DNA from: Syntrophobacterales bacterium
GTDB lineage: Bacteria; Desulfobacterota; Desulfobaccia; Desulfobaccales; 0-14-0-80-60-11
Direction of reading: 5' to 3'
Length of the DNA: 62,363 nucleotides
NCBI GenBank assembly: GCA_023512475.1
Contig: JAILZL010000015.1
Span: 1-62,363 of the forward strand
The notes under the pieces are model-generated. The model was not told the DNA's origin and did not search any database. It was given only the letters and a program-made list of their open reading frames with translations. The position numbers and the translations under genes are program-made. Below, piece after piece: positions 3,622 to 6,302 of this stretch. How positions within the stretch are numbered: position 1 is the first letter of the stretch; each line of letters starts with the position of its first letter.

Positions 3622-3996
3622 TCAGGAGACCTTTGTGATGGTCAGGTGCTCCTGGATGCGGTTCTGCCCGTCCACCAGGATGATCCGGGGCTGGTGCCGG
3701 CGGGCCTCCTCGGCCTCATACACCGCGAAGGTGGCGATGATGAGGGGATCCCCCACCTGGCCCTTGCGCGCCGCGGCCCCGTTGAGGCAGATGACCCCGC
3801 TCCCCGCCTCGCCTTCCATGGCATAGGTCTGGAAGCGCTCGCCGTTGGCCACGTTGAAGACGTGCACCATTTCATAGGGGAGGATATCCGCCGCCCGCAT
3901 GAGCTGGGCGTCAATGGTGAGGGAGCCCTCGTAGGCCAGATTGGCCTCGGTGACCGTGGCCCGGTGGATTTTGGACTTGAGCAGGGTGCGCTGCAT
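3622..3996 (-). CDS. panD: Aspartate 1-decarboxylase
   Basis: PanD makes beta-alanine from aspartate for pantothenate and coenzyme A synthesis. It is made as a proenzyme that cuts itself between Gly24 and Ser25, turning Ser25 into the catalytic pyruvoyl group. Both residues are present in AYEGSLTID at the right position. The 124-residue length is normal. The ATG at 3996 is one base after the panC stop codon, and the Shine-Dalgarno AAGGAG lies in the last panC codons, so the two genes are translationally coupled and share the leader upstream of panC. Confidence 0.97.
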
Positions 3997-3997
3997 C

Positions 3998-4849
3998 TTA
4001 AGGGCTCTCCTTGAGGAGCAGATTGTCAATGAGGCGGGTGGAGCCCACCCAGACGGCCCCCAGCAGCCGGGCGGCGCCTTTCAGCACCTCCACCGCCTCC
4101 AGGGTGTCGGGATCCACCAGGCCGAGGTAGTCCAGGCGGGTGCCGGGGGTGGCGGTGATGATCTCCCGGGCCGCGGCCACCAGAGGCGCGGCCCGGCGCT
4201 CGCCCGTGGCGGCCAGGTCCCGGGCGGCGCACAGGCCGCGGTAGAGGCACAGGGCACGGGCCCGTTCCTCCGGGCTGAGGTAGGAGTTGCGGGAACTCAT
4301 GGCCAGGCCGTCAGGCTCCCGGACGATGGGCCGCCCCACCACCTCCACCTCCAGGTCCAGATCCCGGACCAGGCGGCGGATGAGGGCGAGCTGCTGGTAG
4401 TCCTTCTCCCCGAAGACGGCCACCTGGGGCTGGACCTGATGGAAGAGCTTCAGGACCACGGTGGCCACCCCCCGGAAGTGGCCGGGCCGGGAGGCGCCGC
4501 ACCAGCCCCGGCTCAGCTCCTCCACCGTGACATAGGTCTGATACCCGGGGGGATACATCTCCGCGGCGGTGGGGGTGTAGAGCACATCCACCCCCACCTG
4601 CCGGGCCAGCTCCGTGTCCCGGGCGAGATCCCGGGGGTAGCGGTCCAGATCCTCGCTGGGCCCGAACTGGGTGGGATTGACGAAGAGGCTCACCACCAGC
4701 CGGTCCCCCCGGGTGCGGCCGTATTCCATCAGGCTTAAGTGGCCCGGGTGGAAGTAGCCCATGGTGGGCACGAAGGCAATGATGCGGCCTTCCCGCCGCC
4801 ACTGGCGGGCCAGGTCCTGCATCTCCCGGGGGCTGACGATGAGATCCAT
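3998..4849 (-). CDS. panC: Pantothenate synthetase (pantoate--beta-alanine ligase)
   Basis: PanC joins pantoate and beta-alanine, using ATP, to give pantothenate. The 283-residue protein has the nucleotidyltransferase signature [14 protein letters not shown] (residues ~30-45, with the HxGH), [22 protein letters not shown] and MSSRNSYLS, all near their usual positions. The start is the ATG at 4849, the only one giving a normal N-terminus. No Shine-Dalgarno lies at the right distance: the nearest, CGGAG, is about 20 bases upstream and buried in a terminator-like hairpin, so expression is probably set by that leader. panD follows with a one-base gap. Confidence 0.96.
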
Positions 4850-4874
4850 AAAAAAACCCGGACTGGTCTCCGGG
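4850..4874 (-). terminator. Intrinsic terminator directly abutting the panC start codon (candidate attenuator)
   Basis: On the minus strand a 6-bp stem CCCGGA/TCCGGG with a 6-base loop is followed at once by seven T residues, and the next base is the A of the panC ATG. This is a complete intrinsic terminator inside what must be the 5' leader of panCD, so some transcripts should stop before panC. An upstream segment at 4900-4906 (CGGACTG) is fully complementary to CAGTCCG spanning the loop and 3' arm (4859-4865), a plausible antiterminator. Confidence 0.65.
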
Positions 4875-4931
4875 TGAGGGTCTCGCGCCGTGAGAGTCTC
4901 AGTCCGCCTGCTGCAGATCCAAGCTCTGTTT
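4850..4931 (-). promoter_or_regulatory. panCD leader RNA with mutually exclusive structures
   Basis: About 80 bases separate the predicted start of transcription (~4931) from panC. Read 5' to 3' on the minus strand the leader holds an A-rich start, the CGGACTG antiterminator arm, a small TCTC/GAGA hairpin, and the terminator. The two long-range pairings cannot form together, which is the layout of a transcription-attenuation switch. A conserved RNA called the pan motif is known upstream of panBCD in Firmicutes, Chloroflexi and Deltaproteobacteria; I cannot confirm by eye whether this leader belongs to it. Confidence 0.5.
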
Positions 4932-4937
4932 TTTTTT

Positions 4938-4966
4938 CTTCTACCACAGGGACGGAGGGCTGTCAA
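4938..4966 (-). promoter_or_regulatory. Probable sigma-70 promoter for panC-panD
   Basis: The minus strand shows a perfect TTGACA at 4966-4961, a 17-base spacer, and TAGAAG (4 of 6 matches to TATAAT) at 4943-4938. Transcription would start near 4931, just before the leader and attenuator. It is the best promoter match in this gap. Confidence 0.6.
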
Positions 4967-5120: not shown

Positions 5121-6302
5121 ATGCTGCTGTGCCGCCGCCCCATCTTTGATGCCCGCCTGAAGGTGTGGGCCTATGAACTCCTGGGGAGTGAGGGGGCGCT
5201 GACCAGCCCGGCGCAGGCCCAAGAGGTGCACCCGCTTTGGGCGCCGGAGACCGGGCGGCCGGGAACACCCCTGTGGCTGCAGGTGGCCGGAGAGTTTTTC
5301 CGGGGAGGCCCGGCCGGCGACCTGCCGGCGGCGCGCCTCATCCTGGAGCTGGACCCGCCGGCGGCCCGGAATCCGGAAGTGCGGCGGAGCCTGGCGGCCT
5401 GGACCGCCGCCGGCTACCGGCTGGCCCTGAGCTGGCCGCCGCCCTCGCCGGAGGCCGGGTGGGAGGACCTGCCCGTCTCCCTCCTTAAGGTGGACGGGGC
5501 GGCCCTTTCCGGGGCGGACCGGACCACCTTCGCCGCCGGGGCCGGGAGCCGGCCATGGGCGCTGGTGGCCGCCGGTCTCACGCATCCCCGGCAGTTCCGG
5601 GAGGCCGTGGCCGCCGGCTGCACCTATGCCCAGGGCAGCTTTTACCGCCGGCGGGAGGAGGGGGCCCCGTCTCCCGCCCGGCGCTTCGCGGTCAATTATG
5701 TGACAATCCTCAACGAACTGGGGCAGGCGACCCTGAACTTCCCCCGCTTCGCCGCCCTCATCCAGAGCAATCCCCCCCTGGTGCACCGGCTGCTGCATTA
5801 CCTCAACTCGGCCTTTTTCGGCCTGCCCTGCCGGGTGCACTCCGTGGAGCAGGCGCTGTTGCTTCTGGGGGAGGAGGAGCTGCGTAAGTGGGCCGCCTTG
5901 GTGATCATCCACCACCTGGGGGAGGGGCATCCGGAGGAACTTTTTCTCCTGTCCCTTATCCGGGCCCGGCTGGCCGAACGCCTGGCGGAGCTGGCCCGGG
6001 TGGATTCCGGCCCCGAAATGTTCCTTACCGGGCTCCTGTCCCTCCTGGATGTCTATCTCGGGCGGCCCCTGGAGGCCCTGCTGACGGAGCTGCCCCTGTG
6101 TCCGGTCATCCTGGACGCGCTCAAGGGGGTTCCCGGACCCCAGCGCCGGGTGCTGGACCTGGTTATGGCCCTGGAAGAGGCTCACTGGCAGGAAACCCGG
6201 GAGCTGGCCGCCCCGTTGGGGATCCCTGAGGCGGAGCTCACTGCCGCCTATCTGGACGCCCTGCGCACCGCGGAGGCCGCCCGGTCGCACTGGCTAGGCT
6301 GA
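5121..6302 (+). CDS. EAL-like/HDOD signalling protein with degenerate EAL domain
   Basis: The 393-residue protein has the two-part design of YuxH-type proteins: a phosphodiesterase-like EAL barrel (residues ~1-180) followed by an HDOD domain (~190-380). It starts MLLCRRPIFDARLKVWAYELL, the usual opening of this family. The true EAL catalytic signature and its metal-binding acidic residues are not recognisable, so cyclic-di-GMP hydrolysis is unlikely. The HDOD part carries NPPLVHRLLHYLNSAFFGLP, a well-kept HDOD core. HDOD proteins are generally signalling or scaffold proteins in motility and stress responses. A Shine-Dalgarno-like GAGGAAA precedes the ATG. It is transcribed divergently from panC. 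Confidence 0.85.
   Translation: MLLCRRPIFDARLKVWAYELLGSEGALTSPAQAQEVHPLWAPETGRPGTPLWLQVAGEFFRGGPAGDLPAARLILELDPPAARNPEVRRSLAAWTAAGYRLALSWPPPSPEAGWEDLPVSLLKVDGAALSGADRTTFAAGAGSRPWALVAAGLTHPRQFREAVAAGCTYAQGSFYRRREEGAPSPARRFAVNYVTILNELGQATLNFPRFAALIQSNPPLVHRLLHYLNSAFFGLPCRVHSVEQALLLLGEEELRKWAALVIIHHLGEGHPEELFLLSLIRARLAERLAELARVDSGPEMFLTGLLSLLDVYLGRPLEALLTELPLCPVILDALKGVPGPQRRVLDLVMALEEAHWQETRELAAPLGIPEAELTAAYLDALRTAEAARSHWLG

Follow-up and report, generated by a model that had tools for sequence, protein, structure and literature searches.

A predicted single-hairpin pan RNA before panC and a candidate replacement for PanB under the same motif in panB-less bacteria

In the window (the whole 62,363-nt stretch of DNA analysed here), the panC leader is, as judged from aligned sequences, a single-hairpin pan RNA that would act as an attenuator on panCD, and a second operon led by the same hairpin probably supplies ketopantoate where panB is missing; we put the probability of this combined reading at about 0.75. 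The single-hairpin form is a variation on an orphan motif described earlier as a stem with two highly conserved bulged A's, mostly arranged in tandem (Weinberg 2010, PMC2864571). No proven effector of the pan motif was found in the literature searched, and according to a review no CoA riboswitch has been found (PMC9971707).

Architecture of the panC leader

All parts of the leader lie on the minus strand. The gene panC, encoding a pantoate-beta-alanine ligase of 283 aa, occupies positions 4001..4849 (TIGR00018, 317 bits, E 7e-95; PF02569) and is followed by panD for aspartate 1-decarboxylase at 3622..3996, the start of which is an internal ATG (TIGR00223, 152.6 bits); both identities were confirmed by NCBIfam. 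The ATG of panC is located at 4849-4847, coordinate 4850 being the end of the T-run and not part of the start codon. Further upstream, direct reading revealed a sigma-70-type promoter at 4938..4966 (TTGACA at 4966-4961, a 17-nt spacer and a weak -10 element TAGAAG at 4943-4938), and nearly all relatives repeat TTGACA at a comparable distance before the hairpin. The single pan hairpin itself (4894..4926) reads GAG CUUGG [A] UCUG ... CGGA CUGAG [A] CUC with two bulged A's, and appears in the 5′ part of the leader as GAGCUUGG[A]UCUG...CGGACUGAG[A]CUC; it was matched by the hairpin-only model R2 with 43 bits (E 3.5e-8) and is identical with the MFE helix. It should be added that the intrinsic terminator hairpin ACCCGGAGACCAGUCCGGGU, detected by scan and characterised by a covarying stem, was assigned to 4856..4875 (ACCCGGAGACCAGTCCGGGT at 4875-4856, minus strand, with T7 next), and that a U7 tract (4850..4856, direct reading) touches the start codon.

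The TTGACA box, the leader of ~80 nt and the hairpin with seven T's adjoining the panC ATG had all been proposed by a sequence-only reading of the region, and direct reading bore them out, the terminator being found by scan as well. Terminator-like sites occur across the region at a chance number (6 found vs 5.5 expected in the scan, the panC terminator among them) and the single-sequence fold of the leader is ordinary (z about -1 to -1.8), so that it is the comparison with relatives that lifts the leader above chance.

The gene divergent from panC (window 5121-6302, plus strand) resembles by eye an EAL/HDOD-type signalling protein. Elsewhere in the window genome, a 35-base stretch next to a folD-like gene (C71:5043-5077) is 86% like the panC terminator and represents an ordinary terminator; as a second copy of the leader it was rejected, since only the terminator resembles and the pan hairpin is absent.

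Conservation and identity of the hairpin

The window genome and its relatives belong to the class Desulfobaccia (Desulfobacca and kin). In the genus-mate G001 some 80 bases of the leader, reaching from AGAGCTT to the T-run at the start codon, are 100% identical, whereas the upstream spacer and flanks and the beginning of the panC coding sequence diverge. The leader covariance model gave matches in 27 of the 29 class genomes with E between 1e-14 and 1e-26; of the remaining two, G002 is devoid of panC and in G013 the contig bearing panC is truncated on the 5′ side. The same order of TTGACA promoter, hairpin, terminator, T-run and ATG was seen in all members of the family with an intact 5′ end, and GGGGU(U)6-8AUG recurs in most relatives within the window's own family; a second family (f2) retains both hairpin and terminator, with a start codon located further downstream. 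Weak R1 matches with E from 1e-3 to 0.1 (for example, L100, L101 and L103-L105) were set aside as chance, the pan core being absent from them.

The stem has the consensus GAG CUUGG [A] UC(C/U)G, a loop and CGGA CUGAG [A] CUC. Among 42 distinct hairpin sequences both bulged A's are invariant, 97.6% of the cells are paired and changes on both sides were recorded at four pairs. The consensus corresponds to the second hairpin of Rfam RF01749, and the pan core CCUGGAUCC..GGACCGGGAC is present, as seen both in the alignment to the Rfam consensus and in the invariant alignment columns. The genomic location agrees as well: the hairpin precedes panC-panD in the window and lies upstream of panB, panC or panD in 58 of the 60 loci read outside the class. 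The tandem arrangement was not found, with exactly one R2 match in each of 67 loci.

The Rfam pan model is a 92-nt tandem model with a gathering score of 36.2 bits, and because the hairpin of the panC leader is single, this model misses it. The covariance search with the pan model, which had been suggested together with the sequence-only reading, had a mixed outcome: the window remained without any match to RF01749 even at E 10, whereas the panC leaders of relatives were repeatedly matched below threshold (16-26.5 bits among the matches listed). One class leader before hxlB (G015) even exceeded the gathering score, with 38.7 vs 36.2 bits. Since the Rfam pan matches lie on the same leaders, a brand-new RNA class was rejected, and with it the "new element" that had been offered as an alternative; the other option offered, an expression platform of the pan motif, is supported by a single pan hairpin that carries both bulged A's and the 3′ strand of which is at the same time the antiterminator strand. 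A TPP-like pocket was also considered, for the CUGAGA of the leader equals the TPP pyrimidine-sensor hexamer; as relatives have CCGAGA or CCGGGA and the TPP family was unmatched, the likeness was taken as chance.

Terminator and competing antiterminator

The strand on the 3′ side of the pan hairpin could also base-pair within the terminator, in its loop and 3′ arm: CGGACUG faces C(A/G)GUC(C/U)G, and CUC faces GAG. In the window, this predicted antiterminator 5′ strand, CGGACUGAGACUC, spans 4894..4906 and would pair with 4859-4865 and with the GAG of the terminator; direct reading places CGGACTG at 4906-4900 and CAGTCCG at 4865-4859. The complementarity of these two heptamers had been foreseen, and it is kept in relatives. 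The competing antiterminator stands, with the correction that CGGACTG is not free-standing and belongs to the pan hairpin itself, on its 3′ side. The sequence-only reading had made its case dependent on relatives, and the 27 class panC leaders examined keep both the terminator and the complementarity.

Over these 27 leaders, 95.6% of the cells of the antiterminator pairing are paired, compared with at most 48.5% in slid controls, and one of its positions shows U-A, U-G and C-G. Covariation of the antiterminator is modest: a two-sided change is seen at a single pair (five cells), and 15 shuffles out of 500 score at least as high. For the terminator stem, four pairs have changes on both sides and the covariation score was reached by 0 of 500 shuffles. 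The conserved GAG..C.GUC falls mostly within the terminator loop, and the function of a terminator requires no conserved loop sequence. Taken by sequence, a terminator and a mutually exclusive antiterminator coexist in the leader, which speaks for the transcription attenuation originally proposed.

In several genera the energies of the two folds lie close together, no more than a few kcal/mol apart. In several leaders, including that of the window, the combination of pan hairpin and terminator is more stable than the antiterminator fold by 3 to 12 kcal/mol, and OFF may therefore be the default. It should also be added that the window's family has no other Shine-Dalgarno-like sequence at normal spacing, GGGGU 6-8 nt before the AUG being the sole candidate; in the window, GGGU in the 3′ strand of the terminator (4856..4859), ~6 nt before the AUG, is a likely weak ribosome-binding site. 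The position of GGGGU in the 3′ arm of the terminator suggests that termination and a block of translation would come together.

Pan hairpins across the phylum

Of the 395 phylum genomes, 106 contain a match to the hairpin-only model. Outside the class, 60 loci from 28 families were read, of which 58 precede panB, panC or both and two, from two families, precede hxlB-HPS-RraA. A terminator was located within 230 nt of the single pan hairpin in 49 of the 60 loci, and in 29 of these 49 the complementarity between the terminator 5′ arm and the 3′ side of the hairpin reaches p<=0.05; attenuation is therefore likely to be the general platform in the phylum.

Two arrangements deviate from the common one. 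In G154 (C291) a single pan hairpin with terminator precedes panD, panC being located elsewhere, which indicates that the hairpin can govern panD alone. In the family f3 (G029, G066) the pan hairpin of panC is positioned ~200 nt upstream of the start and has a GC-rich variant core, CCTGGATCC..GGACCGGGAC. A match in Alteromonas (L115) was discarded as chance, with a pan gene absent nearby.

A second target in genomes without panB

The only other pan hairpin of the class genomes is found, in nearly all of them, directly before hxlB and a gene for an HPS-RraA fusion; in the window genome it precedes hxlB/HPS-RraA at C63:11899-13917, and panB is absent. The product of hxlB is 6-phospho-3-hexuloisomerase, PHI (TIGR03127, 171.9 bits), and the fusion combines 3-hexulose-6-phosphate synthase with an RraA-like domain (NF005442, 585.8 bits; PF03737). 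With the models PF02548/TIGR00222, which detect panB in 11 of 14 control genomes, panB was recorded in 0 of 29 class genomes, among which a panB too divergent for the models may exist.

A close HPS-RraA fusion is present in 25 of the 395 phylum genomes, namely in the class and in families f3, f16 and f61. Outside the class, all eight fusion genomes have panC and lack panB, while panB is present in 31 of 32 comparison genomes (Fisher 1.2e-7, a value to be read as five families versus about thirty, since the genomes are not independent); the lineages behind the association are thus few, five families. The pan hairpin precedes the hxlB operon in the class, f3 and f61. Family f16 (G042, G078, G112 and G140) likewise combines hxlB-HPS-RraA with the loss of panB, but no pan hairpin could be detected upstream of either hxlB or panC, and the control of its hxlB operon must differ from the pan hairpin.

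In many class hxlB leaders a CCUCC-like stretch upstream of the pan hairpin could pair with a downstream AGGAGG, and formation of the hairpin might hide the hxlB ribosome-binding site. This pairing is significant (p<=0.05) in 11 of 26 leaders and appears in the MFE fold of 10 of 26, and sequestration was left as a suggestion. Identical hxlB leaders and gene starts were noticed on G021:C11 and G019:C157, assigned to different genera, which are possibly cross-binned contigs.

Proposed switch and its effector

The hairpin, the terminator, the antiterminator complementarity and their conservation can be read from the alignments; which way the switch turns, what acts as its effector and how translation is involved we infer as follows. 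Transcription would begin a short distance before the pan hairpin. Stabilisation by an effector, either a pantothenate/CoA-pathway metabolite or a protein reporting one, would tie up the 3′ strand GGACUGAGACUC of the hairpin; the terminator would then form and transcription would end before the AUG, with the likely ribosome-binding site buried in the same terminator stem. Without such stabilisation, that strand would pair with GAG..C(A/G)GUC(C/U)G, which lies in the loop and the 3′ arm of the terminator; in this antiterminator state transcription and translation of panC could both proceed. As the 3′ strand of the hairpin doubles as the antiterminator, formation of the hairpin should favour termination.

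The effector may alternatively be a regulatory protein binding the hairpin in place of a metabolite, the leader then being a protein-controlled attenuator of the PyrR or TRAP type. We regard this as quite possible, at a little under an even chance: the hairpin is small, with a stem of 12 bp, two bulged A's and a variable loop, and a dimeric protein-binding motif was proposed from the simple stem and the tandem arrangement (Weinberg 2010, PMC2864571), an argument that loses its dimer part here, where the copies are single, and that has to face the high sequence conservation of the whole stem.

Proposed replacement of PanB

Since panB is absent from every class genome, the simplest reading of the second target is that the operon supplies ketopantoate, and hxlB-HPS-RraA is a good candidate for replacing PanB with a non-homologous route to ketopantoate, with the chemistry as we infer it. 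Running backwards, PHI and HPS would split formaldehyde off fructose 6-phosphate; the RraA domain, of pyruvate-aldolase type, would add the formaldehyde to 2-oxoisovalerate to give ketopantoate, without methylene-tetrahydrofolate. For this specific route, unrelated to PanB and fed by formaldehyde from fructose 6-phosphate in panB-less bacteria, we would accept even odds. The RraA half resembles the HMG/CHA aldolase (PDB 3noj, E 8e-20), and the motif [DE]-X20-R-D, which we take to be the active site of RraA-like aldolases, is kept as WGELAT..(17)..RDxxD in the window genome's copy and in most fusions for which the motif was displayed, L099 departing from it with RAAYD. Some PanB variants use free formaldehyde, according to Sugantino 2003 as cited in PMC7073904. 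A link of HPS/RraA to ketopantoate was not found in the open-licence literature.

HPS and PHI make ribulose 5-phosphate in organisms without transketolase, and the operon may serve pentose supply or formaldehyde handling, its coincidence with the loss of panB being historical. The window genome, G001 and G042 have no full-length Transketolase_N match, as such a role would have it. Full-length transketolase matches were nevertheless obtained in G022, G024, G029, G100 and G154, which keep the operon and lack panB, and the operon should therefore not be needed there for pentoses. Moreover, the pan hairpin is otherwise found solely before pantothenate genes, and neither role explains the fusion to an aldolase-type RraA with [DE]-X20-R-D. 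We consider this explanation conceivable and would rather bet against it.

Back at the panC leader, a plain, unregulated terminator that shields panC against transcripts arriving from upstream would suit the chance number of such sites, the unremarkable single-sequence fold and the favoured pan-plus-terminator fold of the window, and is nonetheless very improbable given a leader identical between species, a conserved upstream promoter, a conserved terminator loop and a near-invariant pan hairpin.

For the preferred reading, a pan-controlled attenuator and a pan-led supply of ketopantoate, the single minimal hairpin with its own terminator offers a compact test object for an effector search, and the conserved overlap shows what to measure. 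The larger interest resides in the metabolic prediction from the second target of the motif: with a pan hairpin before hxlB/HPS-RraA in genomes that lack panB, a gene poorly named as "ribonuclease regulator" becomes a candidate, open to experiment, for a core step in making vitamin B5 and CoA. If true, the PRK07028 fusion may also account for how other organisms without panB make pantothenate, of which methanogens are presumably the ones to examine first.

Comparison with known systems

The fusion of Desulfobaccia matches the full length of NF005442/PRK07028, "bifunctional hexulose-6-phosphate synthase/ribonuclease regulator", with 585.8 bits vs a cut-off of 593; that annotation gives no pantothenate role, whereas the RraA half considered here resembles an aldolase. 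With PanB, ketopantoate hydroxymethyltransferase (PF02548), the operon would share the product, ketopantoate, but its proteins are non-homologous to PanB, which the class genomes lack.

Like the pan RNA RF01749, the panC leader has the two bulged A's (consensus CuGCCUgGAUCc..gGACcGGGACaG vs GAGCUUGGAUCC..GGACUGAGACUC in the leader) and a site before panB/panC/panD operons. It differs in having one hairpin, where known members usually form a tandem pair, in a score below the gathering cut-off and in the overlap of the hairpin 3′ strand with a terminator touching the start codon; furthermore, the main text of Weinberg 2010 (PMC2864571) does not name hxlB-HPS-RraA, the second target. Unlike TPP, SAM-I and other riboswitches with a terminator platform, the sensor of the panC leader is a single irregular hairpin and its binding of a metabolite is putative; in common with them, it uses the 3′ strand of its sensor helix for the antiterminator as well, and product feedback would be the expected logic.
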